From positions 1 to 58,303 of the IMG/VR virus record IMGVR_UViG_3300003324_000049: DNA of 58,303 nucleotides; one strand, written 5' to 3'. The notes below the pieces were generated by a model, which did not search any database, had not been told where the DNA came from, and worked only from the letters and a program-made list of their open reading frames with translations. The number at the start of each line of letters is the position of its first letter. The first letter of the stretch is position 1. Shown one piece after another: positions 8,229 to 49,324 of the stretch. Position numbers and translations under genes: made by a program. The DNA comes from a virus.

Positions 8229-8231
8229 TTC

Positions 8232-8264: not shown

Positions 8265-8265
8265 A

Positions 8266-8326: not shown

Positions 8327-8329
8327 CTC

Positions 8330-10609: not shown

Positions 10610-10688
10610 GATTTCCTTTCATAGGGGTTCTCACTATAAGGGATGTAAATCTGGCGAAAAAAAAGAAGGGCTTGTTAGGCCCTCCTCT
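10610..10688 (-). promoter_or_regulatory. terminator-promoter cassette
   Basis: Terminator AAAGAGGAGGGC/GCCCTTCTTT with eight T; TTTTTCGCCAGATTTACATC; -10 TATAGT. Confidence 0.75.
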
Positions 10689-10844
10689 TTAGTACCGGTT
10701 ATCGTACCGGCGGTCGTAGCGAGGGTGTTCGCAACGATTGTTTCGACGCATTTCGCGAATGAAAATCCAGATGAGCCAGATTCCACCCGTCAGACCTACA
10801 AGGATGAGGTCGAGGATGAAATTCCAGAATCCATATTTCTTCAT
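10689..10844 (-). CDS. membrane microprotein with basic tail, 51 aa
   Basis: ATG 10844 follows GAAAGGAACACACATATC. Hydrophobic residues 5-29 contain a GGIWLIWIF stretch, then a tail dominated by Arg, Asn and Tyr. The charge distribution predicts a cytosolic C-terminus. Function unknown. Confidence 0.7.
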   Translation of the reverse strand: MKKYGFWNFILDLILVGLTGGIWLIWIFIREMRRNNRCEHPRYDRRYDNRY

Positions 10845-10942
10845 GATATGTGTGTTCCTTTCGTTTTGGGGGGTTCTCATTATAGGACGTGTAATTCTTG
10901 CGAAAACAAAAAATAAGAGGCCGTGTAGGCCCCTTATTATGA
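10845..10942 (-). promoter_or_regulatory. terminator-promoter cassette
   Basis: Terminator AATAAGGGGCC-TACAC-GGCCTCTTATT with T-run; TTTTCGCAAGAATTACACG; -10 TATAAT. Confidence 0.75.
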
Positions 10943-11203
10943 TTACTTTTTCAGGTCTTTAATGAGCATTTCGAACTTGTAGTCTTCATGGGCATCTTCG
11001 TTGACGTGACGCTGTTCTTCTCGTGTCAGATGCGACAGGGCGTGATCGTAGGCACGGTTGAGCACTCGATTCTTCCGTCGGCAGTTAGCCAACTTGAATT
11101 CGAGATCTCTACGTTCCTGATCGATCTTTCCGATCGCGTACAGAGCACTAAAGATTGCGAATACGGCACCAAGAGTCTTGAGGACGATCTTAAAGCTGTT
11201 CAT
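10943..11203 (-). CDS. membrane-anchored coiled-coil-like microprotein, 86 aa
   Basis: ATG 11203 after GAAAGGAACTACA. N-terminal membrane segment (about 5-24), then a charged helix (25-65) rich in Arg, Glu and Asp and an acidic end. The layout resembles phage spanin-like or scaffold-like anchors, but no lysis gene adjoins it, so I leave function open. Confidence 0.7.
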   Translation of the reverse strand: MNSFKIVLKTLGAVFAIFSALYAIGKIDQERRDLEFKLANCRRKNRVLNRAYDHALSHLTREEQRHVNEDAHEDYKFEMLIKDLKK

Positions 11204-11293
11204 TGTAGTTCCTTTCATAGTGGGTTCTCACTATAAGGGATGTAAAACTAGCGAAAAAATGAGAAGCCGTGTTCGGGCTTCCCATTCGAGGTA
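11204..11293 (-). promoter_or_regulatory. terminator-promoter cassette
   Basis: Terminator GGGAAGCC-CGAACAC-GGCTTCTC; TTTTTTCGCTAGTTTTACATC; -10 TATAGT; CTATGAAAGGAA. Confidence 0.75.
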
Positions 11294-11488
11294 CTATTCA
11301 GTCAATTCAGGTGTCTTCTTCTTACCTTCGATTGCTGTGATGATGAAGTCGGATGCGAAGTGTGCAATTACGCTGGCAACTACACCAATAACAATCTTAT
11401 TGGTCATGAAGCGGGCGAGCTTGCGACTTGCACCAACGATTTCGTCGTCAGTAGCGTTTTCGAGTTCGGTAATGAGGGTAGTGGGCAT
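11294..11488 (-). CDS. membrane microprotein, 64 aa
   Basis: ATG 11488 after GAAAGGAAACATC. Acidic N-terminal helix, one membrane segment at about 31-54, short Lys-rich tail. Function unknown. Confidence 0.7.
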   Translation of the reverse strand: MPTTLITELENATDDEIVGASRKLARFMTNKIVIGVVASVIAHFASDFIITAIEGKKKTPELTE

Positions 11489-11574
11489 GATGTTTCCTTT
11501 CATAGTGGGTTCTCATTATAAGACAAGTAATTTTCGCGAAAAATAAGAGACCGTGTTAGGGTCTCCTATTTTGA
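11489..11574 (-). promoter_or_regulatory. terminator-promoter cassette
   Basis: Terminator AATAGGAGACC-CTAACAC-GGTCTCTTATT; TTTTTCGCGAAAATTACTTG; -10 TATAAT; CTATGAAAGGAA. Confidence 0.75.
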
Positions 11575-11829
11575 TTACTTCTTCCAGAATTGGAGGCGTT
11601 CCAACAATGGTTTCTTTTCCAGCTGCTTGAGTTCGGTCTCAATTATGGGTAGGTAGATATTACAGTGACGAATCAGATCGTCGAGCTGCCATTCAGCTTG
11701 AGTGTGGATGAATTCACCAATGGTGTTTGTAACATCCGCATCAAGATATTCTTTGAGGCGCTCGTTCTGAGTTTTACGTGTGTATCCAACATGCCATTTG
11801 AGGTCGCGGAGGGCGGCTTTGGGGTCCAT
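11575..11829 (-). CDS. soluble microprotein, 84 aa
   Basis: ATG 11829 after GAAAGGACCCTAAAA. Helical, with His/Trp in the first third and a Lys-rich C-terminus (about 70-84). No known motif. Function unknown. Confidence 0.7.
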   Translation of the reverse strand: MDPKAALRDLKWHVGYTRKTQNERLKEYLDADVTNTIGEFIHTQAEWQLDDLIRHCNIYLPIIETELKQLEKKPLLERLQFWKK

Positions 11830-11926
11830 TTTTAGGGTCCTTTCATAGGGGTTAGTTCTCACTATAGGACGTGTAATCCCCGCGAAAAAAAAAAGGAGGG
11901 CTTGTTAGGCTCTCCTCTTTTGGGTC
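11830..11926 (-). promoter_or_regulatory. terminator-promoter cassette
   Basis: Terminator AGAGGAG/CTCCTTTT type stem with ten T; TTTTTCGCGGGGATTACACG; -10 TATAGT; CTATGAAAGGA. Confidence 0.75.
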
Positions 11927-12040
11927 TTACTGTGTAGCCATATGGGCAAATATCGCTAGGACTGTGACGACTAGGAGGTACATCTTTATTGTAAAGAGTT
12001 CTTCTCTATGATCGTGACAGAACATTTTGACTTTGTTCAT
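11927..12040 (-). CDS. membrane microprotein, 37 aa
   Basis: ATG 12040 after CGAAAGGAAACC, with the full upstream cassette. Charged, His-containing N-terminal half, then a single C-terminal membrane segment (about 19-35) ending close to the stop. This is a tail-anchored topology. The regular cassette on both sides supports it as a gene. Confidence 0.6.
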   Translation of the reverse strand: MNKVKMFCHDHREELFTIKMYLLVVTVLAIFAHMATQ

Positions 12041-12119
12041 GGTTTCCTTTCGTAGGGTTCTCACTATAAGACGTGTAATCCCCGCGAAAAAAAGAAGAAG
12101 GGCTTGTTAGGCCCTCCTC
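12041..12119 (-). promoter_or_regulatory. terminator-promoter cassette
   Basis: Terminator AAGAGGAGGGCC/GCCCTTCTTCTTT; TTTTTCGCGGGGATTACACG; -10 TATAGT; ACGAAAGGAAA. Its promoter core differs from that of the 11830-11926 cassette at a single base (TCTTATAG versus TCCTATAG). Confidence 0.75.
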
Positions 12120-12254
12120 TTAGTATACGAACCGATAACCATTCTCAGGTTGAATGTGATGACAGAGGGGTACACCAAAGACAATTGGCGCTGTGCAAGG
12201 TTTGATCTCATCAAGTTGCTTGTAGCACCAATCATCGATGTATTCGTGTTTCAT
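12120..12254 (-). CDS. soluble microprotein, 44 aa
   Basis: ATG 12254 after GAAAGGAACAAA. Contains three Cys and three His (WCYK, PCTAP, LCHH), compatible with metal binding, and ends in aromatic residues. Bounded by cassettes on both sides. Function unknown. Confidence 0.6.
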   Translation of the reverse strand: MKHEYIDDWCYKQLDEIKPCTAPIVFGVPLCHHIQPENGYRFVY

Positions 12255-12343
12255 TTTGTTCCTTTCATAGTTGGTTCATTATAACCAACGTTATTCCTAC
12301 GAAAAAAAATGAGAATCCTTGTTAGGGATTCCCATTTGGGTTG
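12255..12343 (-). promoter_or_regulatory. terminator-promoter cassette
   Basis: Terminator AAATGGGAATCC-CTAACAA-GGATTCTCATTT; TTTTTCGTAGGAATAACG; -10 TATAAT; CTATGAAAGGAAC. Confidence 0.75.
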
Positions 12344-12526
12344 TTACTCCTTTTCGGAGGGGACGGCATTCGCCAGCATTTCACGCTGGTTCATTTCATC
12401 TTTCACATCTTCCTTGAATTCCCGGATGGATTCGATTGCGGCTCCGGGGAGGGAGGCAATGACCTTGGGGACAAAGAGGACGGAAGCGATGGCACGAACG
12501 GGCTTGGAGTGCTTGGTGAGTGACAT
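12344..12526 (-). CDS. microprotein, 60 aa
   Basis: ATG 12526 after GAAAGGAATCAAA. Moderately hydrophobic N-terminal half (ASVLFVPKVIASLPG) with basic residues, then a charged helix. May associate peripherally with membrane. Function unknown. Confidence 0.65.
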   Translation of the reverse strand: MSLTKHSKPVRAIASVLFVPKVIASLPGAAIESIREFKEDVKDEMNQREMLANAVPSEKE

Positions 12527-12619
12527 TTTGATTCCTTTCATAGGGGTTAACTTCTCATTATAATACGTGTAATTTTTGCGAAAAAAAAGGAGGGCTTGTT
12601 AGGCTCTCCTCTTTTGGAA
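12527..12619 (-). promoter_or_regulatory. terminator-promoter cassette
   Basis: Terminator AGAGGAG/CTCCTTTT type stem with eight T; TTTTTCGCAAAAATTACACG; -10 TATAAT; CTATGAAAGGAA. Confidence 0.75.
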
Positions 12620-12859
12620 TTACTTCTTAAAAATCCATTTCCAAAGCGGCTTCTTCACAGGTTCTTCCTCTGCTCGGCTCCAGACTCGGAAGATCATCGC
12701 ACGATTCGCAGCAGCTTTCTTATGCAGCTTTCCGAGCTCCTTCAAGTCATCCATAGTGATGTGCTTGGGGGAGGCCATGAGCAGCTGTTCGAGCTGATCG
12801 ATTTCGTCGAGGGCTTCAGAGTACAGAGTGGCAGCGGTTTCGCGAGTTACTGTAGTCAT
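12620..12859 (-). CDS. soluble helical microprotein, 79 aa
   Basis: ATG 12859 after GAAAGGAACACTAAA. Helical with Leu/Glu repeats (about 12-60) and a very basic, Trp-containing C-terminus (KKPLWKWIFKK), which could bind membrane or nucleic acid. Function unknown. Confidence 0.7.
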   Translation of the reverse strand: MTTVTRETAATLYSEALDEIDQLEQLLMASPKHITMDDLKELGKLHKKAAANRAMIFRVWSRAEEEPVKKPLWKWIFKK

Positions 12860-12952
12860 TTTAGTGTTCCTTTCTAGAGGGTTAATTCTCACTATAAGAC
12901 AGGTAATTTTCGCGAAAAAAAAGAGAATCCATGTTGGATTCTCCCTTGAGGG
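12860..12952 (-). promoter_or_regulatory. terminator-promoter cassette
   Basis: Terminator GGGAGAATCC-AACAT-GGATTCTCTTTT; TTTTTTCGCGAAAATTACCTG; -10 TATAGT; GAAAGGAACAC. Confidence 0.75.
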
Positions 12953-13060
12953 TTATTTCTTGAGGTTCGGGGTGTTCAGTTCTGCACATACGAGGATTGC
13001 TGCGAATTTGGTTTCCCATTCGAGCAGCAGTCGCTGGTTATCGCGCTGGTACTGAGTCAT
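12953..13060 (-). CDS. microprotein, 35 aa
   Basis: ATG 13060 after GAAAGGAACTAAA; the longer upstream frame crosses promoter and terminator and is not credible. A short amphipathic helix with Arg/Gln/Leu and one Cys. The flanking cassettes are the main reason to accept it. Confidence 0.55.
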   Translation of the reverse strand: MTQYQRDNQRLLLEWETKFAAILVCAELNTPNLKK

Positions 13061-13152
13061 TTTAGTTCCTTTCAGAGGGGTTTCTTTCTCATTAAAAGGC
13101 ATGTAAAATGTGCGATGCAAAAATGAGAATCCATGTAGGATTCTCATCTTAG
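13061..13152 (-). promoter_or_regulatory. terminator-promoter cassette
   Basis: Terminator GATGAGAATCC-TACAT-GGATTCTCATTTTTG; promoter TCGCACATTTTACATGCC with -10 TTTAAT; CTGAAAGGAAC. Confidence 0.7.
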
Positions 13153-13377
13153 CTACTTGTTGTAGCTGATGTCGATGATGACGTAATCGTTGGCAAACAT
13201 GTGATGTTCCTTATTAACGTCCAACATGGCCTTCAGCGGCTGGGTTACGTTGCTAGCCGGTGTCCTCTCGAGAATCTCTACATGGCCGCCTTTGACGACG
13301 AACAGAGTTCCGAGAAGCACCAGTGCAACAGCAATGCTGATGAGCAGGGCGTTAAAAAAGTTTTCAACAATCTTCAT
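13153..13377 (-). CDS. membrane-anchored microprotein, 74 aa
   Basis: N-terminal membrane segment at about residues 8-29, then an extracytoplasmic-type domain of 45 residues with His, Asn and Val. A signal-anchor topology is likely. Start ATG 13377; AAGGAATAATC precedes it. Function unknown. Confidence 0.7.
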   Translation of the reverse strand: MKIVENFFNALLISIAVALVLLGTLFVVKGGHVEILERTPASNVTQPLKAMLDVNKEHHMFANDYVIIDISYNK

Positions 13378-13571
13378 GATTATTCCTTAATTTGATAGGG
13401 TCTTCTTCTCATAAAAACCCATGTAAATCATGCGATTGTTTTCCCAGAAATTCCCCCCGCGCTTTTTTTCAGAATCGAAAAAATTAAAAGCCATGTAAAA
13501 ATAGAAGCCCTGTGTAAGAGGTTTTAAGTCTTACACAGGACTCCTATTTTGATTACTTGTGGTGGTTCATG
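13378..13571 (-). promoter_or_regulatory. long terminator-promoter cassette
   Basis: Begins after the stop at 13572 with a strong stem of about 18 bp (CCTGTGTAAGA/TCTTACACAGG core at 13509-13539), followed by TTTTTACATGGCTTTTAAT, a possible partial promoter copy, and then TCGCATGATTTACATGGG with -10 TTTTAT at 13412-13436. It is about 100 bases longer than the other cassettes; nothing else is recognised in it. Confidence 0.6.
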
Positions 13572-13856
13572 TTATGGTTTGAACTTTCCAACAAATGCCA
13601 CGGCTTTCGACGAGATGACGTGCAACCGTTCATGCTGAAGGATAGCCACGATACCGACGAGGTTACCACCGACCGCGATCAAAGCGTTCTTGCTCACAGG
13701 TTCGCTCTTCCGTGTGGAGGCGATCTTGTTGAGGCGATCTAGCTGATCGAGGATCTTGTTGTATTCGTCAGTACCGGGAGTTGCTTCATGCAGTGCTTCG
13801 GTTACAAGGCCAATCACCGTTTCGAGTCCGGCAATGTTTTTATCTTTTTTAAACAT
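13572..13856 (-). CDS. conserved small phage protein with C-terminal membrane segment, 94 aa
   Basis: ATG 13856 follows GAAAGGAGACCTC. Soluble helical N-terminal half, Lys/Arg-rich middle and a hydrophobic C-terminal stretch (about 60-90, with GGNLVGIVAIL). First gene of the cassette array after the late operon. Function unknown. Confidence 0.7.
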   Translation of the reverse strand: MFKKDKNIAGLETVIGLVTEALHEATPGTDEYNKILDQLDRLNKIASTRKSEPVSKNALIAVGGNLVGIVAILQHERLHVISSKAVAFVGKFKP

Positions 13857-13913
13857 GAGGTCTCCTTTCAAGAGTCTTCATTATAATGCGTGTTTTATCC
13901 GCGAATCCGCTCA
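13857..13913 (-). promoter_or_regulatory. promoter without upstream terminator, at the end of the late operon
   Basis: Minus strand TTCGCGGATAAAACACGCATTATAATGAAG, abutting the holin stop. Unlike the other cassettes it has no hairpin, so late transcripts may read into the array. Confidence 0.65.
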
Positions 13914-30522: not shown

Positions 30523-32718
30523 CTACGCGGTGTAGGTGAAGGTCCAGTTACGAGTGGACAGCGGAGCCAGGTAGTAACCCGTGGTCGGCTCAGCCGATAC
30601 ATCCGTGGTCTCGGTGATCACGCGGTCACCTGCCGGTACAACAGCACCGTCGATCAGGTACTCAACACCGGTCTGAGACGGGATCGTCAGAGTGTTGGTT
30701 GCAGAGTCGAAGGACGGAGCCGTAGCGGTCACTTCGGTACCCTGATCGCGACGGATAACCAGAGCCGACTTGGGCTTGGTCAGAGCACCCGACATGCGGG
30801 TTTCCATCAGGTACTTGTACTGGTTGAAGTCGATGTCGAAGTCATCGAATGAGGTGATCTCGCCACCCTTGTTGGTACCGACCGTGTAGTCGATCAGGTT
30901 GACGATGATGCCGAGGAGCGTAGCGTCCTCACCCATCGGTTCGACGGGAACGATCTCCTTGACGCGGATCGCGGCGGCCAGAGCAGCCTCGGTCTCGTAC
31001 AGGCGGCGGCCCATCTTGTCCTTCAGCAGGAGCAGTTCGGTCAGAACTGCATCCGTGGTGTAGAAGGTCGGGGAGCCGGAGCCACGGTAGTTGGTACGAG
31101 CGCGGGTGATCTCGTCGATCATCACGTCCGGAGCAACGTTGGCTGCCAGCTGAACACGGTGAGCGTAGAGCTCGTGGTCGTTTGCGATGGAGCGGATACC
31201 GATACCATCGGTCTGGCCCTGCGGGTCCTTGATCTTGTCAGCGTGACCCACTGCACGACCGTCGCCGATAAGGATTGCGCGAGCGATTTCCTCGTTCAGC
31301 ATGAAGCGGATTTCCCACTTCAGCCAGGTGATGATGTCGATGTCGGTGATGTCGATGACGTCATCCCGGTCCAACTTCTGCTTCTTGTAGACAGTTGCCG
31401 GGGAGGTGGAGCGCTGCAGGAGGACGACAACTTCGTCCTTCTTCAGGGTGCCCTTGGTGTAACCCTTGGCACGAGCTTCCTCGGCGGTCAGGTCGGCGAG
31501 GATAGTCTTGACGCGAGCGAAGGGGGAGTGCTTCGTGGCGCCCAGAACCTTCTGAACCCATTCGGTCTGACGAGAGATGAGCTCCGGGGTCTGCGAGGAG
31601 ACACGAGCATCCGGGAAGAGGATGTCGATGTTCTCGATGCCGTAGTCAGCGTGCGCGAGCTGGAACTTGGCGAACGCCTTCTTGAAGGAGCCAGTGGACT
31701 GAGCGAGCTCGTTCAGTTCGATGACGTCGGAGTGGGAGAGCGTGTAACGGTCCTTGGTGGCGGTGCCGCCAGTAGCGCCGTTTTCAAATGCGTTGTAGGT
31801 CATGTCGGCAGAGCCTTCCTGATTGTGCTGGAGATTTTCAGAACCGTCGCCAGAATCGGCGTCGGAGTGTTCGGCTGAATCGTCTGAGTTATCATTCGAT
31901 TCGTTGGAGGTGTCGCTCGAGTCCTCACCATCATTTTCGACACCCTCTTTATCGAGGGCTTCGCCGATCAGTGTGTGGAATACGTCGAGCTGGGTAGGTG
32001 TCAGAGAATCGATAACCTCATCCACATCAATCTCTTCGTCCGTCTCTTCGGCATGAAGCACGACATCGCCGTCCTCTTCGTCAGAGTCGTCGCTGTGCTT
32101 CACAGAGCCAGAGGCAGCCTGAGAGACCAGTGCGTAGAGAACCGTCTTCTGCTTGGGTGACATACCGGCGAGGATTTCCGCAACGGTTTCACCTTCTTCG
32201 GAGTCGTCCTTCGTCTCAGAAGTTTCAGCATGGGAGAGAGTGAATTCTTCACCAGAGTAGATGATCGCTTCACCAATCATGGTGTCGGTACCATCTGCTG
32301 CGTGACGAAGATTGATGTCTTCAATTACAGCTCCCGAATTAGCACCCTTGTATACGAGGCTAACTTCACAGATATTGCCGTGAACAACATCGGCACCCAT
32401 CTGCTTGAGACGATTTGCAAAGATGGAGAGCATCTTTACATCGCCGTGACGGACAAGTTCCTTAGCATCCTTAGCAGCCTGGGTTTCATTGAAGAAAGCT
32501 TCAGTGTAAACTCCGTCTGCACGGTGGTAAAGAACCGCGTGACCCAAGACGTTGCTTGGTGTGTCGTGCTGATGCTGCCATACGAGGGGTACAACTGCCT
32601 GGTCCTGATGAACGAATGCGCCATGCTTGATCGTACGACCATCGGAGCACTCGATGTCGAACCGTGTAGCATAACCCGTAAAGTCAGGCCGTGTACTGGT
32701 TTCCGTGACTACTGTCAT
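30523..32718 (-). CDS. fused HK97-type prohead protease, acidic scaffold and major capsid protein
   Basis: 731 residues. Residues 1-160 are an S78-type protease: HQHDTP and CEVSLVYKG hold the expected His and Ser. Residues about 165-300 are an extreme Asp/Glu/Ser-rich segment that can act as scaffold. Residues 305-660 are an HK97-fold capsid protein (ELISRQTEWVQKV, ILIGDGRAVGHADK). The last 65 residues form an Ig-like domain as in the tail tube. Internal ATG 31803, with AGGAAGG 10 bases upstream, could give the 426-residue capsid part alone. Overlaps the portal gene by 35 bases; AAGGAGAACC precedes ATG 32718. Confidence 0.9.
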   Translation of the reverse strand: MTVVTETSTRPDFTGYATRFDIECSDGRTIKHGAFVHQDQAVVPLVWQHQHDTPSNVLGHAVLYHRADGVYTEAFFNETQAAKDAKELVRHGDVKMLSIFANRLKQMGADVVHGNICEVSLVYKGANSGAVIEDINLRHAADGTDTMIGEAIIYSGEEFTLSHAETSETKDDSEEGETVAEILAGMSPKQKTVLYALVSQAASGSVKHSDDSDEEDGDVVLHAEETDEEIDVDEVIDSLTPTQLDVFHTLIGEALDKEGVENDGEDSSDTSNESNDNSDDSAEHSDADSGDGSENLQHNQEGSADMTYNAFENGATGGTATKDRYTLSHSDVIELNELAQSTGSFKKAFAKFQLAHADYGIENIDILFPDARVSSQTPELISRQTEWVQKVLGATKHSPFARVKTILADLTAEEARAKGYTKGTLKKDEVVVLLQRSTSPATVYKKQKLDRDDVIDITDIDIITWLKWEIRFMLNEEIARAILIGDGRAVGHADKIKDPQGQTDGIGIRSIANDHELYAHRVQLAANVAPDVMIDEITRARTNYRGSGSPTFYTTDAVLTELLLLKDKMGRRLYETEAALAAAIRVKEIVPVEPMGEDATLLGIIVNLIDYTVGTNKGGEITSFDDFDIDFNQYKYLMETRMSGALTKPKSALVIRRDQGTEVTATAPSFDSATNTLTIPSQTGVEYLIDGAVVPAGDRVITETTDVSAEPTTGYYLAPLSTRNWTFTYTA
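31803..31820 (-). promoter_or_regulatory. internal ribosome binding site and ATG for separate capsid protein
   Basis: Minus strand AGGAAGG, 10 bases, ATG in frame with the fused gene and exactly at the junction of acidic region and capsid domain. Confidence 0.55.
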
Positions 32719-33988
32719 TTTGAAGGTTCTCCTTCCTTTCTTGAGTTGTTTCCGATGGTGGCGAAGAGCCTTTTACCTTGCCGACATTATCCTCGTTCGG
32801 CATGTTCGAGTTCTGCAGCTTGTCGGCTTTCGCTTCTGTAGATGGCTTGAACCCGATAGCGGCACGAATTTCATTACTGGTAACAATCTCATTACGAGAA
32901 AGTTTATCGGCAATATCGGCAATGTCGATAAGACTGGCATTCTTAAATGGGTCCCGATAGAACCGAATTGCCTGTCCTTGTGCACGAGCAGTCTTAGATA
33001 GGAACTTTCGCTCCATACCTTCAGAAATAGCTGTGAGAATTGGCTCAACTGTACGGTTGTTGTAGTTGATCAACATCTTTTCATCAGCAGTACCTTCGAA
33101 GACATCCTTCGTGATACCCAGCTGTGAGTACAACTGCTTGGTTAGGAATTCGACCTGTGCCAGCATGTTGTTCTCAGCAGGACGGTTTAGCTGTGTAATC
33201 TTCTCGGTGGCATCTGCATAAGCAACACCATACTTCGAGTTATACAACTGCTCTTCCATGTCCTGTCGACGAGCAGCGGCCTGCTGCTTACGAGATTCAG
33301 ACTTAACTACATAAGGAAGCTGGATAATGATGTCCAGTTTTCCAGAACCAGCCTGTTCATCGATCGCATCGAGGAGGCTGAGCTTACGGGTCAAACGCTT
33401 CAGTGTCGAGTTATCGTCGTTCATCACGGCATAGAGAGGATTCTCAATGATCGCTACTTGACGCTTTGGAAGCGTGAGTTCTTCCCTGTTACCCGTCTTC
33501 TGGTTATAAACCAAAACACGAACATGATCGGGAAACCATGCCACAACTTCACCAACACGCAGTGTTTGGATTTCGTAAGCCATTGATACAGCGGGATCAT
33601 CGGTAGCTTCCATGATGCATACAGCAGCAACACCCTTATCAAAGAGTGTCATTGCGATATTTTGTCGGAATGCACGAGCTCCTTGGTCGAGGTTAGCTTC
33701 AAAAGTAAGACAGTCGTTAAGACCACCTTTCATTTTTTCTTTGAAGCGACCCTCGTCATCCAATCGAACATGTTGAATTGGAATTGCTGCAACGTCAATG
33801 GCAATCTGATTGTAGATAGACGTGATAACCGTCTTATCCCCTGAGAATCCAAATCTTCCAACACTTGGATTACGACCAAAGTTTGCACTAGTTCCCCAAG
33901 ATTGATATCGAGTTGTTTCCTCTTTATCAAATGGACTATAGCTTGCTGCGTGAGCGATGAAATCTTTAACCTGTTGCATAAACCCCAT
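32684..33988 (-). CDS. portal protein
   Basis: 434 residues, HK97/SPP1-type portal. Typical blocks are YNQIAIDVAAIPI (about 57-69), LTFEANLDQGA, a central stem helix with Arg/Gln, LGITKDVFEGTADEKMLINY (split at about 290-310) and a polar C-terminus. Forms the DNA entry ring. GGGGGTGAAAACTT precedes ATG 33988. Lies between the 140-aa basic protein and the capsid gene. Confidence 0.88.
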   Translation of the reverse strand: MGFMQQVKDFIAHAASYSPFDKEETTRYQSWGTSANFGRNPSVGRFGFSGDKTVITSIYNQIAIDVAAIPIQHVRLDDEGRFKEKMKGGLNDCLTFEANLDQGARAFRQNIAMTLFDKGVAAVCIMEATDDPAVSMAYEIQTLRVGEVVAWFPDHVRVLVYNQKTGNREELTLPKRQVAIIENPLYAVMNDDNSTLKRLTRKLSLLDAIDEQAGSGKLDIIIQLPYVVKSESRKQQAAARRQDMEEQLYNSKYGVAYADATEKITQLNRPAENNMLAQVEFLTKQLYSQLGITKDVFEGTADEKMLINYNNRTVEPILTAISEGMERKFLSKTARAQGQAIRFYRDPFKNASLIDIADIADKLSRNEIVTSNEIRAAIGFKPSTEAKADKLQNSNMPNEDNVGKVKGSSPPSETTQERKENLQNDSSHGNQYTA

Positions 33989-34023: not shown

Positions 34024-34446
34024 TCATTTTTTACCCATAGTGTCCGTAACTGCGAATTTGTCACCACGAAGAAGATGCAGATATTGTTTACCTGCGTCTT
34101 TATGCTTCGGGCTGAGATCGCTTACCTTAACACCCTGAAAGTGCTGAGCCATTTTCAGCTCCCACTTACGAGCCTTCTCATTGTATTTTGTGCTCTTGTA
34201 GGAGAGTCGCATACCCTTTCGGATCTTACGGAAATTTCCCCACTTCGAGCCCTTGTACTGAAGCTTGGCACCGCGTTTAGCAAGCTTACTGGCTTTCTTA
34301 TCCAGACGGATTGCTTTTTTAGAAGCACGAGCAAATGTCCGAGAGGCATTACCCCTTCGAACACCCCACTTCATTCCCTTAACGCCAATATGGGCAAGGA
34401 ACTCATCGACTTTATCAGGTTCGTCGACGTTTAAATCGTCGCTCAT
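34024..34446 (-). CDS. basic head-region protein with GVKGMKWG motif
   Basis: 140 residues. The motif AHIGVKGMKWGVRR at about 18-31 is followed by a strongly basic, helical body (Lys/Arg about 25 percent). A related motif starts 36212-36730. The ATGA overlap with the large terminase shows coupling. In other phages this motif sits near the start of head-associated proteins; here a DNA-binding or minor capsid role is inferred. Confidence 0.7.
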   Translation of the reverse strand: MSDDLNVDEPDKVDEFLAHIGVKGMKWGVRRGNASRTFARASKKAIRLDKKASKLAKRGAKLQYKGSKWGNFRKIRKGMRLSYKSTKYNEKARKWELKMAQHFQGVKVSDLSPKHKDAGKQYLHLLRGDKFAVTDTMGKK

Positions 34447-36191
34447 TCAAATGCCTCCTTATTGGCTTTGTATGCTATGTAGGCATCCATCATGGCGGCC
34501 ACATTGTCAATCTTCTGATCTTGACGTTTCTTCAAAAGTTTACGGTTACCATTGGTGTCTTCCATCGTAATGGCGTTACCCATAGCAAACTGCATAAGAA
34601 GTTGATCGAAGATGAGCATACGTTGCTCACTCAGCTGCTTCAGTTCACCAAGAGGAACAGATTCAGTTCGAGCACCCTGAGGAACTTTCTCAATTCCAAA
34701 AGGTCCATTGTCTTGCTCCCACCTACTTACAAATTCTTTAGCATTGTAAGGGTCGAAACCGAAAGCTCGAACATCGAAGCCATTCTTCTCAATGAAAGCA
34801 TCGAGGTCATCGTAGACAGCCATCATGTCGAGGACTGTGCCCTCAAGAACGTGAAGGCTACCCTCTTGAATAAACTCTTCATACTTTGCTCGAGCAGCTG
34901 CCGGAAGCTTCATATGAGTGTTTTGGGAGATGTAACTTCGGGTTATGATTCCGAATGTTCCATTAGGGCGAGGAAACATGAAAGTGAAGGCACAGAAGTC
35001 ATCACCCTGTGAAAGGTCGGCTCCCAAAGCACAAGGTAGTTGCCAGAAACGTGGTACACGCTTATGAGGCTCAGTCTCTTCGTAAGTGAAGAAGTACGTA
35101 TAGCCTTCCATGGGAATTCCGAAACGCTTAGCCAGGATATCGTTCCGTGATGAAGGTGAAGCTTCAATTCGTTCGACATCTCGCTGGTAAGTTTCATAGG
35201 TGACGGTCTGTCCGATGTTGGGTTGGGCCTTGGGCCACATCGCAGGTTCAGTGACTTCCTCCAATTCATCAAGCCGGTAGTGCCAGATTGAAATGTGAGG
35301 CATATCGAATTCGCCCTTGAGAATGCCAGCTAGTTCCATTTTGATAGTGTCACCACTACCGTTACGAACGGTACCCTCAGAGCTGATCGCCACAATCAGG
35401 TAGTCGTCCAATTTGGACGCACCCTGTTCAATAGCACCTACTACGTCTTCACGAACGTCCCCAGACAGCCATTCGTCAACTGTAGAGATCTTCGGACGAA
35501 GACCCTGCAGCTTGTCCACCTTCATTGGGCGAACCTCGAGTAGAGAACCCGTTAGGAAGTTCTCGATACCCTTCTTGGTCGAAGCGAGTTTGACTCGATT
35601 CATCTTGTTTCCCGTGGTGTTCTGAAGAGACCCCTCAGTGAGGAACTTGAACAATGGACCACGAGCGCGAGTAATCGCGGTTCTAAATGGAGACATCACT
35701 TCATCAGCCTGCTTCATGGTTGGAGCAGTTGTGATTTGGTGAGATGTAGAGGTGTCCACATTCAGAAAGTAGCTTTGGATGCACTCAGCATACATGGACT
35801 TGGCAGCACCACGAGCTACGATCAGATACTGCTTGACAGTAAGCCGCTTCTTAATAGTTTTCTGGACATAACGACCACCGTAGTTGTCAGGGGAGGGTTC
35901 GTAAACACTCCGCTCTACAAAGTAGTACCAACCGAAGATCTGTTCAGCCCAAAGTTTGAAGCTATCCAGAAGGTGGAGGTCTGTCCCGTCCGTTAGAGTG
36001 AGCTCATTCTCGCAATACTTGATGAAGCCGTTGATAGCCAAATCATCATAGTAGAAACGAGGGTCGGCGATGAGTGCGTCAATCCGATTCATCTCGGCAC
36101 TGATCTCTTTACATACGGGGATTTCTCCGTTGAGAACTCTCTCACGGAATCTCCCATAATAAATTGGTGTTGCAGTGTTAGACAGAGCCAA
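34443..36191 (-). CDS. terL: terminase large subunit
   Basis: About 582 residues. Motor ATPase: Walker A variant VARGAAKSM at about 126-134 and ISTVDEW for Walker B (about 240). The RuvC-like nuclease has GADLSQGDD, FGFDPYNA and a distal Asp in KIDNVAAMMDAY. Start set at TTG 36191, because the longer ATG frame (36212) would translate an ideal AAAGGAGGG ribosome site. It packages DNA into heads. Confidence 0.9.
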   Translation of the reverse strand: MALSNTATPIYYGRFRERVLNGEIPVCKEISAEMNRIDALIADPRFYYDDLAINGFIKYCENELTLTDGTDLHLLDSFKLWAEQIFGWYYFVERSVYEPSPDNYGGRYVQKTIKKRLTVKQYLIVARGAAKSMYAECIQSYFLNVDTSTSHQITTAPTMKQADEVMSPFRTAITRARGPLFKFLTEGSLQNTTGNKMNRVKLASTKKGIENFLTGSLLEVRPMKVDKLQGLRPKISTVDEWLSGDVREDVVGAIEQGASKLDDYLIVAISSEGTVRNGSGDTIKMELAGILKGEFDMPHISIWHYRLDELEEVTEPAMWPKAQPNIGQTVTYETYQRDVERIEASPSSRNDILAKRFGIPMEGYTYFFTYEETEPHKRVPRFWQLPCALGADLSQGDDFCAFTFMFPRPNGTFGIITRSYISQNTHMKLPAAARAKYEEFIQEGSLHVLEGTVLDMMAVYDDLDAFIEKNGFDVRAFGFDPYNAKEFVSRWEQDNGPFGIEKVPQGARTESVPLGELKQLSEQRMLIFDQLLMQFAMGNAITMEDTNGNRKLLKKRQDQKIDNVAAMMDAYIAYKANKEAFE

Positions 36192-36211
36192 AGCCGACCC
36201 TCCTTTCATCA

Positions 36212-36730
36212 CTAGAGTTTTACTGTAGTTTGTGCACGAGGCGTGAACTTTACAGTTGGTCGAGCAGACCCGCCAGATGCCTTAGAGATAGCTGCTTCGA
36301 TGGCCATTTGCGCACCAACTTTAGCAGCTTCTTTACCGGCGGTCTTAGCAGCGTCTTTCAGACCTTCTTTAAGGGCGTTCTCAATCTTCTGATTGAGATA
36401 CGTCTTTGCTTGCTTCCGACTGACGTCGCCAACATCTTTGAGTAGAGCTGTAACGATCTTTTTACCGTTACTAATCTCAGGCTCAGTAAGTTTGAGGTAT
36501 TCCTTCTCAAGCTTAAGTCGATTGATTGCAGACTTCAGCTCATCGTCAGTCATCTTCTTGACATCTGGCTTCGCCGGTTTAGAGGTAGAGCCATCAGAAC
36601 CTTCAGAGTCTGATGAGGTTTGCTTTTTACGCTTACCCCACCGCATTCCTTTTACTCCAAAGTGAGCAAGCTCGTCCTCGTCCAGAATTACTCCGTGGTC
36701 ACCGAGGATGTCGCTAGCGCTTCTGCCCAT
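36212..36730 (-). CDS. head-region protein with GVKGMRWG motif, 172 aa
   Basis: The motif AHFGVKGMRWGKRKK at about 22-36 parallels that of 34024-34446. Then comes a Ser/Asp-rich linker and a helical body with repeated Lys/Ala/Glu (about 85-150). AAGGGGTGAA precedes ATG 36730; it overlaps the adaptor gene by 43 bases. Possibly a scaffold-like or DNA-associated minor head protein. Confidence 0.7.
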   Translation of the reverse strand: MGRSASDILGDHGVILDEDELAHFGVKGMRWGKRKKQTSSDSEGSDGSTSKPAKPDVKKMTDDELKSAINRLKLEKEYLKLTEPEISNGKKIVTALLKDVGDVSRKQAKTYLNQKIENALKEGLKDAAKTAGKEAAKVGAQMAIEAAISKASGGSARPTVKFTPRAQTTVKL

Positions 36731-39079: not shown

Positions 39080-39091
39080 ACTTCCCCTATG

Positions 39092-39271
39092 TTATAGACC
39101 GTTGATTTGTGGAATTGTCTCCACGTATCCAGGACAGTCGAAATGTGGTTCATGACCGATAGTCAAACCACAAAACGGATCTTCCTGAACAGGTTCTGGG
39201 GTTTCTTGACTTGCTTCTTCGGCCGCGGCTGCTTTTTCAGCAATCATTGCGTGTGTTTCAAGCGTGCACAC
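39092..39271 (-). CDS. zinc-binding-like CPGY microprotein, 59 aa
   Basis: GTG 39271 preceded by GGGGGTAACACT. An Ala/Glu-rich N-terminal half is followed by FCGLTIGHEPHFDCPGY (about 33-49): Cys, two His, Cys, a possible metal site. It lies 12 bases before the secreted protein gene. Two other short proteins (51015 and 51154) carry the same Cys-His-His-CPG pattern. Confidence 0.55.
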   Translation of the reverse strand: MCTLETHAMIAEKAAAAEEASQETPEPVQEDPFCGLTIGHEPHFDCPGYVETIPQINGL

Positions 39272-39379
39272 AGTGTTACCCCCGATAGTAATGATGTTTA
39301 TGATGACAAAGTTGCTAAAACAGACAAAAGTAAAGAATACATGTTCGCAACTTTGTAGAATTCGGCAAAAGTAAAGAAT

Positions 39380-39525
39380 CTATGTAGGAACTCTATGATA
39401 GAACGTTAGATCTCGAACGTTTACAACCGCACGAAGTCACAAACGCCTCTTGAAAGGAGTGTAGGGTAGATGAAGTCCTACTTTTATTGTGAGATCTAAC
39501 GCTCTATCACAGAGTCCCTACATAG
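39380..39525. repeat. 35-base inverted repeat with 76-base spacer
   Basis: Arms 39380-39414 and 39491-39525 match at 32 of 35 positions in inverted orientation. The spacer on the plus strand includes TTGAAAGGAG and an 8-residue reading frame, ATG 39471 to TAA, that ends inside the second arm. Confidence 0.75.
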
Positions 39526-39679
39526 TATGAGGGAACTTTGGACCTAGTATGGTGACTGTATACTCATACTTCTTACCCTCAGAAGGAATGCCAGATTTGC
39601 GCGTCGGCAGGGAACGATCATGTCGTAGAAAACCATTAAGTCCGGTGAGACCTGGAATTCCATCTAAAGGTAAGGGGTT

Positions 39680-39805
39680 TACATGTATAGCTTGAAGAGG
39701 GCTTAGGTTCTCTGACGTTGCCCAACGTACTGACTAGGCGGAGAGTCGTCCCGGAATCGACACCTAGGAGATCAACTAAACCCTCATCAAGTCATACATG
39801 TATAG
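39680..39805 (-). ncRNA. structured element flanked by TACATGTATAG repeats
   Basis: A stem of about 16 bp (39691-39706 with 39776-39791, one mismatch and one G-U) encloses CTAGG/CCTAG, GTCG/CGAC and ACGTT/AACGT helices. The 11-base direct repeats TACATGTATAG lie immediately outside (39680-39690, 39795-39805). No RNA family recognised. Confidence 0.45.
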
Positions 39806-39806
39806 T

Positions 39807-39906
39807 GTTGTGGGCGTCGATTCGTCCGGATTTCTCAGCTCTCATGGGGGAAGAGCACGGCCCCAGCCACAGACATTTAAGCTACCTCGGCAGATAGCCC
39901 CACAAC
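39807..39906 (-). ncRNA. second structured element, about 100 nt
   Basis: GTTGTGGGGC pairs with GCCCACAAC to close a domain that contains GCTATC/GGTAGC and GCTCT/AGAGC hairpins. It does not fold as a tRNA. It sits directly downstream of the 39913-40089 gene on the minus strand. Confidence 0.4.
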
Positions 39907-39912
39907 TACTAA

Positions 39913-40243: not shown

Positions 40244-40495
40244 TCAGTTAGAGCTAGGATTTTCAACTCTGATGTAATTTCCAGTGATATTGAGCTCAAG
40301 TATCTCATCGATAGCATGATCGATAGCTTGTATCTGATCAAGTTCACTCAATTCATCACTGAATACACAGATCCTAGCTTGGTAGGCCAGCGTATGGTAG
40401 CCTGACTGCTGGTCCCAGTTGTTCCACTGATCGAACTCAGTGAAAGGATTGTATGGATTGTCAGCTGTCGATAGCATTGTTTCTTTAGCCAACAT
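40244..40495 (-). CDS. small conserved hypothetical protein, 83 aa
   Basis: ATG 40495 after AGAGAAAGGAAAG, a strong site, 12 bases after the polymerase-like gene. Acidic, soluble, with aromatic FTEFDQWNNWDQQ near residue 20 and helix-rich C-terminus. Possibly a partner or regulator of the upstream protein; no family recognised. Confidence 0.65.
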   Translation of the reverse strand: MLAKETMLSTADNPYNPFTEFDQWNNWDQQSGYHTLAYQARICVFSDELSELDQIQAIDHAIDEILELNITGNYIRVENPSSN

Positions 40496-40507: not shown

Positions 40508-43255
40508 TTAGTCTTCAGTTGGTTTGGGATTGATAGCACGATCCAATGTTGATGTAGATACACCAAGGATAGTAGCCACATCAGCCTGTGTCTTACCACT
40601 AGCCAGCAAGGACTGAGCTCTAGCAAGAGTACTACCTGCCATTACCTCTGTCTTCCTGGGTGTAGCCAGTTCCTTGACGTTGTCTATGTCAGCATTGTCA
40701 AGGATCTTCTCCAGCATGTTGGTACTGATAGCACCAGCCTGGATAGCATCCCATTCTTTAGGGGTGATCTTAATGGTCTGCTTGGTAGCACCGGTTCTAG
40801 CACGGCCTTCTTGTTGTGCAAGACTCTTGATCTTCTTGAGTTCAGCTGCATCCATCTCTGGATTAGCATCTCTCTTAGCCTTAACAATAGTACCGGCTAT
40901 CAGCTGGGCATGGCGTTCAAGGGGTTTATTCTTGAGGGCCTCGTTGAGTTTGCCACGGAGGGCGTCTACTTCGACGGCGTATACCTTCTTAGCAGAGGCG
41001 CTTTGTGGAGTGGGGGTAACATTAACCGCTACCTTCCTTGACTCATTGGCCAGAGCCTTCAGCTTATTGGCATGGTCTGCATAGACATGTTCTATAACAG
41101 TGCCGCCATTAGAAGACACCAGGTCATAAGCATCATCTACTAGATCAAGCTTCTTAACCTTAGTAGTCTTGAGGATACCGGTATCCTCATACTTACCAGT
41201 AGCTGGGTTCAGAGCCTTCCGAGTCTCACCAGTCTCTACCCATACCCTCTTACCAGTAGCCTTATCAATAGGTCCACCATCCTTAGCCATACGAGGTTTC
41301 CTATCAGGAACCCTGGCTTCAGACTTAGCCCTAGAGATAATGGTCGATGCACCACCAGCTTTGCCGTTAGGCTTCATCTGGTATTCCCTCTTAAGAGCAG
41401 CAATGCCATTGTCTTTAGCAGACTGCTTATAATCGAGGTGGTGTTTCTCAGCATCGATAACTACCATTGAGTGCTTGACTGCACGAGCAATCTCATTGAA
41501 TGGTGCACCCTTGATGGTCATGTCTGTAATCAGATTAGAGACATCGCCCATCTGTTGGCCTTTGGCTTTGGCCGACATCTTAGGTGCATCATCGGGAAGC
41601 TTATACAGCTTCTTAGGATCGAAGTCCTTCAGTTCCTTTAGGGGCTGAGATGACTTGATCTTACCTTCAGGATTGGGAATGACAAGGACAGTATCGCCAT
41701 CAAAGTCTGCACCAGACAGTCGTTCTGCTACCTTCGAGTTGATACCAATAGCATCCCTAGCCTGCTTGATTACAGCATTGGCTTCACGGTTCTTGTTGTT
41801 GACAACGAGTTCCGGGATTTCAAAAGTACCACCATGAGGGTGTCGAATCAGAACAACCTTTTCTCCATCCTTGTAATTAGGAGCATAAACTTCATAGTCC
41901 TTCAAACTGTTGAATGGGAGAATGACATGGTTGGCAGTTCGAGGAAGACCCGCTGCTTTCAGATGAACGGCAGAAGAATCGGCTCCATCAGCGAACTTCT
42001 CCATCAACTTCCGTTTTACAACAGGGTTGGTGAGAGAATTGATTTCGTCGAATTCGGCTTTCTTCTGATCATACCGTTTTCCAAGCTGTTCCTTAGCAAG
42101 GCTCGGACTTTGCTTAGAGAGCATCTGTGAGGAAAGCTTATTGGACCATGCAGTCCAGTCACCTTCTTCATTCACAATGTTGAGCGCAGAAGTAACCGTT
42201 TCAGTTCCATCTTTGTTCTTTTTCGTGATTTGACGAACAGCAGACCCAAACGGGTTTTCTTCGTCTTTTTGAGGCTTCATAGCATCGAGCTTGTTGCCGG
42301 TGTCACTCTTATTGGTGTTAAAGATCATATCCACACCATTTGGGAGGTTGTCATTATACATGACCATTCCCTTAAGGTAGTGAGTGCCGTTTACACCAAT
42401 TCGAACCTGGGCATATCGAGAATTCCCCATATCAAGGTCTTTTACGCCTCGACGGATCTCAATAACGCCGTCTTTGTCAGCACCGCCTTCTTCGGCATAC
42501 CGAACGCCTACCCGCTTAAGGTCTACGTTGAGCGGGGGCAACATTCCGAAGTTGGTAAAGGATTTACCGCCATCATCAGAATCTCCAAGCAAGGGTTTGA
42601 TCTTGTCCTTGTTTTTGAGAACGTCAGAATAGGTTTTATCAGGACCAGTCAAAACTTTGATATTGGTAAAGTTACCAGTACCCATCTGTTCCTGTTTAAT
42701 GTAGTGGACCTTATAACCTTCTTCTTTAAGAGCGGCAATAGCCGTTCCGAGGCGAGTACTACTTACGCCAAGATGATTTTCGGTTCCAGCACCGAAGTCG
42801 ACATACTCATTCTTCGAAATTTGGTCTTTGATGAGTTTCGCAGTACCAAGAATCGCATTTTGGTCTTCTTTTTGTGCATCGGCAAGAAGAGCACGAACAG
42901 AAGACTCGTTTTTACCACCCATGAGCTCACCAATCTTTACATTGGTATAACCCTTTTCTTTTAGCTTTACAGCCTGGGCAATATCAGCTCGTTTAATCTG
43001 ATCATTAGCGATAGACGTCAAAGCACGAAGCTGAGTCGTCGTCATTTTGTATTCTTTGCCATCCGCATCGACACCGCTGTAGTATTTAGCGATTTCGGTG
43101 GGAGTCAAACCCTGTTTCTGCAGAGCTTCGATGTGACCTTTAAACGAACGAGACCGTTGTTCAGGATTTTCACCGCTACCCCAAGGATAGCGGCCAGACT
43201 TTCGCAGGATGCCTTCATGTCTTAGAAAGCTTGCGTCTGTAGTTTCTTTTCCCAT
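40508..43255 (-). CDS. two-barrel RNA polymerase-like protein (YonO/QDE-1 type)
   Basis: 915 residues. GADFDGDTVLVIP at 515-527 carries the metal-binding DFDGD of double-psi barrel RNA polymerases, preceded at 466-485 by KVVLIRHPHGGTFEIPELVV, which parallels the beta-prime region before its DFDGD. A likely first barrel lies around 286-316 with HYLKGMVMY. Helix-turn-helix-like segments occur at about 45-125, 160-180 and the C-terminus (880-908). The N-terminus RHEGILRKSGRYPWGSG resembles the motif of two head-region proteins. A single-chain DNA-dependent RNA polymerase, as shown for phage SPbeta YonO, is the best model. Confidence 0.75.
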   Translation of the reverse strand: MGKETTDASFLRHEGILRKSGRYPWGSGENPEQRSRSFKGHIEALQKQGLTPTEIAKYYSGVDADGKEYKMTTTQLRALTSIANDQIKRADIAQAVKLKEKGYTNVKIGELMGGKNESSVRALLADAQKEDQNAILGTAKLIKDQISKNEYVDFGAGTENHLGVSSTRLGTAIAALKEEGYKVHYIKQEQMGTGNFTNIKVLTGPDKTYSDVLKNKDKIKPLLGDSDDGGKSFTNFGMLPPLNVDLKRVGVRYAEEGGADKDGVIEIRRGVKDLDMGNSRYAQVRIGVNGTHYLKGMVMYNDNLPNGVDMIFNTNKSDTGNKLDAMKPQKDEENPFGSAVRQITKKNKDGTETVTSALNIVNEEGDWTAWSNKLSSQMLSKQSPSLAKEQLGKRYDQKKAEFDEINSLTNPVVKRKLMEKFADGADSSAVHLKAAGLPRTANHVILPFNSLKDYEVYAPNYKDGEKVVLIRHPHGGTFEIPELVVNNKNREANAVIKQARDAIGINSKVAERLSGADFDGDTVLVIPNPEGKIKSSQPLKELKDFDPKKLYKLPDDAPKMSAKAKGQQMGDVSNLITDMTIKGAPFNEIARAVKHSMVVIDAEKHHLDYKQSAKDNGIAALKREYQMKPNGKAGGASTIISRAKSEARVPDRKPRMAKDGGPIDKATGKRVWVETGETRKALNPATGKYEDTGILKTTKVKKLDLVDDAYDLVSSNGGTVIEHVYADHANKLKALANESRKVAVNVTPTPQSASAKKVYAVEVDALRGKLNEALKNKPLERHAQLIAGTIVKAKRDANPEMDAAELKKIKSLAQQEGRARTGATKQTIKITPKEWDAIQAGAISTNMLEKILDNADIDNVKELATPRKTEVMAGSTLARAQSLLASGKTQADVATILGVSTSTLDRAINPKPTED

Positions 43256-43267: not shown

Positions 43268-43846
43268 CTAACTTGCGGCGAGTTCGAGCATTTCATTCAT
43301 AAGACGGTCCGCAGTCTTAATACGGTCCATGATGTAAGCAATGTCATCATTCGGAGGAATAAAAGCAACCACATCGTCGTTCTGATAAATGCGGAGCTCA
43401 ATGAGATCAATCTCGAAAGGTTTCAACTCGTATTCCAAACAGAAGAGGGCAACATAAATCATAAGCTGCCGCATATCTGCTTTGAGGATGCCAGTCTTCA
43501 AGTCATGGATTCGAAGTACGGTACCGAGGTTTGGTTCTTCACGGTAACTGATTGCATCAGCCGTTCCGAAACAATTGTATGAATAGAACAGAATCTGTTC
43601 AGGAGTCATACGAAAGCCGATTGCGTCATTGACGTACCGGCTCAAAGTTTTGTTATTACGAGGGAGTTTGACCCCGAGAAGAATCAGATTCTTAGCGAGA
43701 TCATGAAGTCGACTACCCTCGAGAGCTGCCATCTGGGATTTAACCCATTTAAGCAGCCGGTCGTTGTCGTAGTTGATCCAGTGGTACTTGCTTGCGCTGA
43801 ACTGCGCGTGCTTTCCTTCTAGATGAGAATGCTTGTTGAAGAGCAT
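43268..43846 (-). CDS. PD-(D/E)XK nuclease (RecB/DUF2800-like)
   Basis: 192 residues from ATG 43846, inside the preceding gene. Family signs: QFSASKYHWINYD near residue 15-27, GTADAISY (about 100), and IHDLKTG (about 117-123) with QLMIYVALF following, the D-EXK/QL pattern of RecB/Cas4-type nucleases. Probably trims or resolves DNA during replication or recombination. Confidence 0.75.
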   Translation of the reverse strand: MLFNKHSHLEGKHAQFSASKYHWINYDNDRLLKWVKSQMAALEGSRLHDLAKNLILLGVKLPRNNKTLSRYVNDAIGFRMTPEQILFYSYNCFGTADAISYREEPNLGTVLRIHDLKTGILKADMRQLMIYVALFCLEYELKPFEIDLIELRIYQNDDVVAFIPPNDDIAYIMDRIKTADRLMNEMLELAAS

Positions 43847-44126
43847 TGAGTACAACCTCTTTGTTTTCCGGGTATATGACTGACGAGAATGACATTCGAT
43901 CAAACTGTTCGATGTACCATTCTTGGTTGGGGCGGAAGGGCGCTTGGGCATCACGCTTGGCTTCCAGTATTGCCCAACGGTCATTGAACAAAATTAGAAG
44001 GTCTGGAATCCCTTGTTGCTCATTAGCGTCTAGCTTGATAATGAAGCAGCCAGGAAACAACCTTCGTAACTCTTTCTTGAGACCAGCTTGAAAGTCGGAC
44101 TCGAGCTTAGACTTAGCTTTTGCCAT
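43749..44126 (-). CDS. VRR-NUC type nuclease
   Basis: 125 residues. IPDLLILFNDRWAILEAKR (about 40-58) gives the GIPD-ExK core of the VRR-NUC/Holliday-junction-resolvase fold, and LEAKRDAQAPFRPNQ follows. CAGGAGAGTCT before ATG 44126. Its last 98 bases overlap the start of the next nuclease in another frame. Confidence 0.8.
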   Translation of the reverse strand: MAKAKSKLESDFQAGLKKELRRLFPGCFIIKLDANEQQGIPDLLILFNDRWAILEAKRDAQAPFRPNQEWYIEQFDRMSFSSVIYPENKEVVLNALQQAFSSRRKARAVQRKQVPLDQLRQRPAA

Positions 44127-49078: not shown

Positions 49079-49108
49079 TCTCTCATTATAAACTGTGTAG
49101 ATCTTGCG
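49077..49108 (-). promoter_or_regulatory. cassette-type promoter of the 48565-49023 gene group
   Basis: Minus strand ACGCAAGATCTACACAGTTTATAATGAGAG, matching the small-gene promoters. Confidence 0.65.
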
Positions 49109-49324
49109 TTAGAACGAGAATTCGGGGATAGTAGAGAGCAGATCATTAGGACTCTTAATCCAAACAAGACTGTCCTTACGCAATGGATACCACTGCTTCC
49201 CGAACTGCTCTCTACGTATTAGCCGAGTCTTAGTATCGGCATGACGCACATCCCCATACTGATTGATCTCGTACAAAGGAAAGTCGGGGAGAACCTTCCA
49301 CTTCTGCCTGGGTTTCTTAGGCAT
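49109..49324 (-). CDS. NUMOD4-like protein, 71 aa
   Basis: Starts with basic residues, then WKVLPDFPLYEINQYGDVR (about 9-27), a clear NUMOD4-like unit, and a Lys/Arg-containing tail. Single unit, no nuclease. Overlaps the previous gene by 8 bases. Confidence 0.65.
   Translation of the reverse strand: MPKKPRQKWKVLPDFPLYEINQYGDVRHADTKTRLIRREQFGKQWYPLRKDSLVWIKSPNDLLSTIPEFSF

Follow-up and report, generated by a model that had tools for sequence, protein, structure and literature searches.

The window, meaning the whole stretch of viral DNA analysed here, is 58,303 bases long. Its first and last 25 bases (1-25 and 58279-58303) are identical, and the window is therefore probably a circular molecule opened at an arbitrary position. 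A long open reading frame, 55531-58302, runs up to the last bases of the window and probably resumes at the beginning. The gene of main interest encodes a putative RNA polymerase at 40508-43255 and has the following neighbours, identified by gene or PHROG annotation unless stated otherwise:

30523..32718, minus strand, head maturation protease/capsid fusion (PHROG 3270; "major capsid and protease fusion" in relatives)
32684..33988, minus strand, portal protein
34024..34446, minus strand, DUF7211-tagged protein (LAHIGVKGMKWGVRR) in the terminase-portal interval (tag search and gene annotation)
34443..36212, minus strand, terminase large subunit
36212..36730, minus strand, DUF7211-tagged protein (LAHFGVKGMRWGKRK) adjoining the terminase (tag search and gene annotation)
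39080..39912, no strand, largely gene-poor stretch, probable counterpart of the relatives' genome ends (from the gene order of Mudcat, Gordon and 1706)
40244..40495, minus strand, small conserved ORF after the polymerase (PHROG 4303), homologue of 1706 orf76
40508..43255, minus strand, putative single-chain two-barrel RNA polymerase of 915 residues (PHROG 4291; profile match, motifs and model)
43268..43984, minus strand, exonuclease (PHROG 3953), upstream of the polymerase in the same operon, in the order seen in Mudcat and FP_oengus
43749..44126, minus strand, endonuclease (PHROG 93), first gene of the operon

The polymerase gene is the last in this endonuclease-exonuclease-polymerase operon, which is preceded by a copy of the repeated element described below. 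The true start of the exonuclease gene is probably downstream of the listed one. In relatives, the polymerase gene comes last at the right end of the genome, and the lysis and terminase genes come first at the left end.

The open reading frame at 40508-43255 is intact, with an ATG start and no internal stop codon. The PHROG 4291 profile matched its product with E = 0, residues 5-909 being aligned to positions 6-906 of 909. Relatives were encoded in 250 of 50,697 phage records, in 249 cases over at least 80% of the length. The phages concerned infect mostly Arthrobacter, Gordonia and Streptomyces, and further carriers were found among phages of Lactococcus, Curtobacterium, Rhodococcus, Microbacterium and Faecalibacterium. 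Relatives were also present on bacterial genome contigs, many of them from Clostridia and other Bacillota. Database names for members of the family are "RNA-dependent RNA polymerase", "HTH DNA-binding protein" and "hypothetical". The polymerase matches of Gordonia phage Tanis (56591-59299) and of two IMG/VR genomes (G040 and G045) contain one in-frame stop each (TAG or TGA), possibly reflecting frame ends at the gene edge or real interruptions.

The following features were assigned within the polymerase gene, all on the minus strand:

43154..43225, minus strand, N-terminal tag, residues 11-34 (LRHEGILRKSGRYPWGSGENPEQR), putative virion-packaging signal (predicted disorder, conservation)
42809..43150, minus strand, N-terminal HTH-like helical region, residues ~36-149 (model helices, weak PHROG match)
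42266..42535, minus strand, putative first-barrel (beta-like) region, residues 241-330, with R285 and K295-G296 (conservation, model strands)
41837..41845, minus strand, R471-x-P473 of the beta'-like barrel (invariant in both alignments)
41693..41707, minus strand, predicted catalytic DFDGD, residues 517-521 (invariant in both alignments)
40532..40636, minus strand, C-terminal HTH, residues 874-908 (Pfam HTH_23, model helices)

The first-pass annotation had singled out GADFDGD (residues 515-521) and a preceding R-x-P block (RHP, 471-473) as marks of a polymerase catalytic barrel. Neither motif varied in an alignment of 17 relatives, which is the less biased set because it was gathered without GADFDGD, R-x-P or R285/K295-G296 as criteria, nor among 96 relatives, most of which were found by the N-terminal tag pattern and then filtered for GAD[FYL]DGD. 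R285 and K295-G296 were likewise invariant in both sets. R285 and K295 fall in the beta region of the structural model, in which a second double-psi barrel (DPBB) with two basic residues had been sought, and may be the basic residues of the second half of the active site. Judged by motif and model, DFDGD represents the metal-binding DxDxD triad that two-barrel RNA polymerases carry in a DPBB.

An AlphaFold model from the 96 sequences reached a pLDDT of 87 and a pTM of 0.75. It supersedes an earlier model from 17 sequences, which was too poor (pLDDT 73, pTM 0.48). The best fold matches in the PDB were QDE-1 (E 8.8e-10), followed by P74-26 gp62, the "P32 gp64" RNA polymerase and plant RDR2. Foldseek superpositions were loose (TM 0.25-0.30 when normalised to query length, with a maximum of ~0.30; rmsd 12-24 A), and thus support assignment to the two-barrel kind of enzyme, not close kinship. 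The evidence for the fold comes from structure, because PDB sequence searches with the single protein and with the profile returned only HTH and helical-repeat proteins and no polymerase. A predicted fold without the two barrels had been named beforehand as the outcome that would speak against a polymerase; the prediction instead has QDE-1 as its best PDB match, and the earlier reading of the product as a single-chain RNA polymerase holds, as a candidate activity supported by sequence and model.

HTH-like ends had also been expected from the sequence, and both were recovered. At the C-terminus, Pfam HTH_23 matched with E = 2.3e-6, beyond the family cut-off. At the N-terminus, the model contains HTH-like helices at residues 38-149, and a weak match to an HTH-type PHROG was found in the same region. 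A small separate HTH protein of Arthrobacter phage Qui (BFVD A0A5B8WIH5, 95 aa) has a fold that aligns with some 85 residues of the modelled polymerase (E 0.004, TM 0.77 across its own length), and is possibly the HTH domain of the polymerase in stand-alone form.

The N-terminus of the polymerase (residues 1-35) is predicted to be disordered (pLDDT <50) and contains a tag with the consensus LxH-x-G-x-x-RxSGRYPWGSG. In an alignment unbiased with respect to the tag (A1), the mean conservation of SGRYPWGSG was 0.98, compared with 0.32 for residues 1-10 and ~0.5 for the HTH region that follows, so that the tag is as strongly conserved as the active site. It was present in all 17 sequences of the unbiased relative set; frequencies from searches that had the tag among their patterns are biased. 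The tag is also found on phage proteins that are not polymerases, namely on a 390-aa protein in contig L019, on three proteins in contig L046 and on one in contig L079. The three in L046 (154-3798) are consecutive, carry the form HYGxxxxxxHSGRYPWGSG, and include two GNAT acetyltransferases.

The body of the tagged L019 protein matched PHROG 7502, and the start of that profile was itself matched by another tag, L-x-HHG-x-x-GQKWG, which is Pfam DUF7211 (PF23847). Because PHROG 7502 thus occurs with either type, the two tags appear, from these sequences, to be interchangeable. They share the L-x-H-x-G beginning and occur in the same phages, but the polymerase tag continues with RxSGRYPWGSG and DUF7211 with GQKWGVRR. 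The DUF7211 model matched polymerase N-termini weakly in several genomes (E 0.001-0.006, positions 5-14), and the polymerase tag scored below the curated Pfam cut-off. A direct hhalign comparison of the two tags (prob 93.6) was discarded as circular, both sets having been drawn by an L-x-H-x-G expression.

DUF7211-type tags and the polymerase have closely similar distributions. Phage counts for the DUF7211-type query and the polymerase query, respectively, were 95 and 95 for Arthrobacter, 55 and 55 for Gordonia, 54 and 54 for Streptomyces, 7 and 7 for Curtobacterium, 4 and 4 for Microbacterium, 4 and 4 for Rhodococcus, and 2 and 2 for Faecalibacterium; for Lactococcus they were 13 and 4. The DUF7211 model was found in 30 of 31 polymerase-carrying records tested (the exception being G026) and in 0 of 9 records without PHROG 4291. 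When sampling started from DUF7211, a PHROG 4291 match was present in all 8 contigs longer than 50 kb (one cut by the contig end, one marginal). The tag may nevertheless occur without the polymerase as well, because 0 of 8 DUF7211-bearing contigs of 27-47 kb had a detectable PHROG 4291 polymerase.

In the carrier phages, tagged genes cluster from the lysis and terminase genes to the portal gene; in the window, the two DUF7211-tagged proteins flank the terminase, one on each side. DUF7211-type tags were also seen on Thiqqums gp6, Hydrus gp15, OhMyWard gp18, TaidaOne gp10 and Ingrid gp10. Among the annotations of these five proteins are RNA ligase, acetyltransferase and protease, which makes for a wide range of possible cargo. 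A DUF5662 protein in contig L008 (3177-3809) has its DUF7211-type tag at the C-terminal end and not the N-terminal one; such a change of place would be expected if the signal is movable.

Lactococcus phage 1706 (EU081845) offers a link to the virion. Its orf75 is a homologue of the polymerase (36% identity, E = 1e-167) with DFDGD and tag intact, and was deposited as "structural protein". The same designation was given to orf7, which bears two DUF7211-type tags, and to orf62 and orf71. The label probably stems from detection of the proteins in virions, because orf62, orf71 and orf75 lie outside the block of structural genes and nothing in their sequences points to a structural function. Co-purification is a possible source of the label of orf75.

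The other feature of the window that bears on the polymerase is a repeated element, 31 bp long with the consensus TCGCA-N5-TTACAY-N3-YTATARTGAGA. The first-pass annotation had spoken of unusual cassette promoters, and about 21 copies of the element are indeed present on the gene strand. In the form TTCGC-N7-AC-N6-TATAATGAGAA, motif search located 21 copies between 6.9 and 13.9 kb, a further copy at 49.1 kb and, at 44.18 kb, a weaker one:

6865..6895, minus strand, element copy before a 63-aa ORF
8229..13905, minus strand, array of 20 copies of TTCGC-N7-AC-N6-TATAATGAGAA
44181..44211, minus strand, weaker copy 55 nt before the endonuclease-exonuclease-polymerase operon
49080..49110, minus strand, copy 57 nt before a 152-aa ORF

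Most copies in the array stand 18-30 nt before a small ORF led by a ribosome binding site, often with a terminator-like hairpin preceding them, and such hairpins are in excess within the array. The copies at 8327-8357 and 8575-8605 have no RBS-bearing ORF close behind and may start small non-coding RNAs. Similar copies were found upstream of the polymerase operon in genome G002 (506) and in DrGrey (51922). Element copies were absent from the late region including 39.1-39.9 kb, and a late promoter at that site was rejected on this ground; the late genes behind 39.3-39.9 kb, suggested at first pass as a possible target of the polymerase, are thus not supported as such. The repeated intergenic regions described for CaiB (PMC9302106) are of a different sequence.

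In Arthrobacter phage Gordon, de novo motif search recovered the element of the window; in Lactococcus phage 1706 it recovered a core shared with that element, TTACAT-N4-TATAGTAGAAA. No clear motif emerged from FP_oengus, and the one from Mudcat was weak; in Mudcat the element was later counted by consensus. With up to two mismatches allowed, the counts on the gene strand and the other strand were 20/0 in the window, 17/0 in G002, 23/0 in G003, 13/0 in 1706, 7/1 in Gordon, 5/0 in Mudcat, 12/0 each in Tanis, DrGrey and ReqiPepy6, and 4/0 in Yotsuba. Eight phages that infect the same host genera but lack the polymerase gave, on plus and minus strand, 3/2 (949), 0/2 (c2), 0/1 (TP901-1), 2/0 (sk1) and 0/0 each (phiC31, ArV1, ArV2 and GTE2); presence or absence of the polymerase was checked for the named phages, G002 and G003. 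The element is thus enriched and strongly strand-biased in most carriers from several hosts, and at background level in the eight controls. Sites were intergenic in 11 of 11 cases in DrGrey and in 11 of 13 in 1706, genomes with only 5-7% intergenic sequence. Several carriers have few copies or none (FP_oengus, G006, G012 and G026, for example, all 0/0), and in those with none the element is taken to be diverged or absent. The strand bias in most carriers and the background level in the controls support the earlier suggestion that the polymerase may use the cassette promoters.

Taken together, these findings point to a virion-borne, DNA-dependent RNA polymerase of the single-chain two-barrel kind, which would begin early transcription at the element, a reading to which we assign a probability of about 0.62. 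Catalysis would be performed by the two barrels, with the metal held by DFDGD, as fold and motifs suggest in silico. The enzyme would be loaded into the particle through SGRYPWGSG, the tag in its disordered N-terminus and a variant of the DUF7211 tag carried by other head-region proteins of these phages; the tag is shared between these proteins, and the structural records of 1706 argue for the putative loading function. After injection, the polymerase would recognise the 31-bp element as its promoter, perhaps with its own HTH domains, and may transcribe about 20 small single-gene units from it, as the linkage between element and enzyme suggests. The copy before the endonuclease-exonuclease-polymerase operon would then allow new enzyme to be made for the next virions. 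Co-occurrence of polymerase, tag and element could also reflect common descent of one phage group.

Virion RNA polymerases form a known class (gp66, gp96 and the phiKZ vRNAP), and there is precedent in it for such a mechanism. Phage P23-45 has two enzymes, the virion RNA polymerase gp96 and the non-virion RNA polymerase gp64; the virion two-barrel enzyme reads early promoters, whose motif is found only in phages with the enzyme, and gp96 enters the particle as a fusion with the tape measure protein (PMC10770324). The logic of an enzyme-linked early motif is the same here, and P74-26 gp62 and "P32 gp64" are among the best fold matches, but a short N-terminal tag is proposed in place of a tape measure fusion, and one enzyme in place of two. 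Gp66 of phi14:2, from the crAss-like phages, is likewise a virion-packaged single-chain two-barrel RNA polymerase for early genes (PMC10770324); going by its description, it is set apart by family and packaging. Known members of PHROG 4291 (such as Mudcat gp94, 1706 orf75 and FP_oengus gp55) match over the full length, occupy the same place after endonuclease and exonuclease genes, and show no essential difference.

YonO of SPbeta suggests a different role for the enzyme. Like the present polymerase, it is single-chain, about 100 kDa, phage-encoded near late genes and equipped with DxDGD, and it transcribes the late genes of SPbeta (Forrest et al., 2017; PMC5467207). By analogy, the polymerase of the window might be a non-virion protein, made by the host enzyme after infection, that transcribes late structural genes behind it in the circular genome. 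With the genome ends joined, the late genes follow immediately after the polymerase gene, and SPbeta has yonO in close company with an exonuclease gene and with terminase and portal genes. We nevertheless regard this role as unlikely: the element copies lie in small-gene arrays and before the polymerase operon and not in the late region, the 1706 homologue is recorded as structural, YonO has no tag and SPbeta no shared promoter element. Similarity to YonO around DxDGD was not significant by hhalign (prob 0.3, E 0.17), and the PHROG 4291 profile had no match in SPbeta. The likeness to YonO and QDE-1 noted at first pass therefore stands for QDE-1 as the top PDB match, whereas for YonO it is one of kind only. 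Far less probable still is an RNA-dependent RNA polymerase acting on phage or host RNA. Many records and the PHROG 4291 label say so, and QDE-1, which uses both RNA and DNA, and RDR2 are the nearest solved folds; these, however, are eukaryotic RNA-silencing enzymes with ~11-13% identity in structural alignment and without HTH ends or tag. The Pfam RdRP model (PF05183) scored 16.7 bits, under its curated cut-off of 23.8, and we found no evidence for RNA dependence here. The label appears to have been transferred from distant similarity, and the enzyme, from a DNA phage, bears HTH domains of DNA-binding type.

Two further explanations concern the element and the tag, and each seems to us rather doubtful, if somewhat less so than a late-gene role. 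The element contains TATAAT, the host -10 consensus, and could be a promoter read by a host sigma factor and overlapping a phage regulator's operator, with the polymerase acting elsewhere. Repeated operator or promoter arrays exist in other phages. Yet no -35 hexamer was found at the right spacing, sigma-70-type promoter matches in the array were not in excess (10 against 9.0 expected), and the core is common to phages of Actinomycetota and Lactococcus while remaining at background in phages of the same hosts that lack the polymerase. The tag, for its part, could instead serve to dock the tagged proteins onto a common partner outside the virion, for instance a factor of phage or host origin that brings them together in infected cells. 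The chemical diversity of tagged proteins (GNATs, DUF5662, annotated RNA ligases and an RNA polymerase) would suit a docking site, but tagged genes cluster between lysis/terminase and portal, and two tagged 1706 proteins are recorded as structural.

A broader version of the virion polymerase reading, for which we would give even odds, is that a single modular signal, existing in the two forms DUF7211 and SGRYPWGSG, loads enzyme cargo, and that the loaded polymerase sets the promoter language across hosts. The cargo would then comprise RNA polymerase, acetyltransferases, RNA ligases and others in a large group of siphophages, and phages of very different hosts would have one promoter language in common. 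If the tag is a loading signal, injected cargo proteins could be identified in many phage genomes. The "RNA-dependent RNA polymerase" or "HTH protein" of hundreds of genomes would become a virion RNA polymerase for which a promoter is predicted, in effect a new kind of injected transcription machine, and the way in which common actinophages and gut phages control their early genes would become testable. Single-chain two-barrel enzymes also bear on the origin of cellular RNA polymerases. The kind of enzyme and its family, PHROG 4291, are already known. The open-access literature searched contained no mention of GQKWG in phages, of GRYPWGSG or of DUF7211 in this context, and no report of packaging or of a promoter for PHROG 4291 polymerases; by this measure the tag, its link to DUF7211 and the promoter element are new.

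Elsewhere in the window, two direct repeats of 159 nt, 72% alike and 1080 bases apart, lie at 24647-25885 within the structural gene region.
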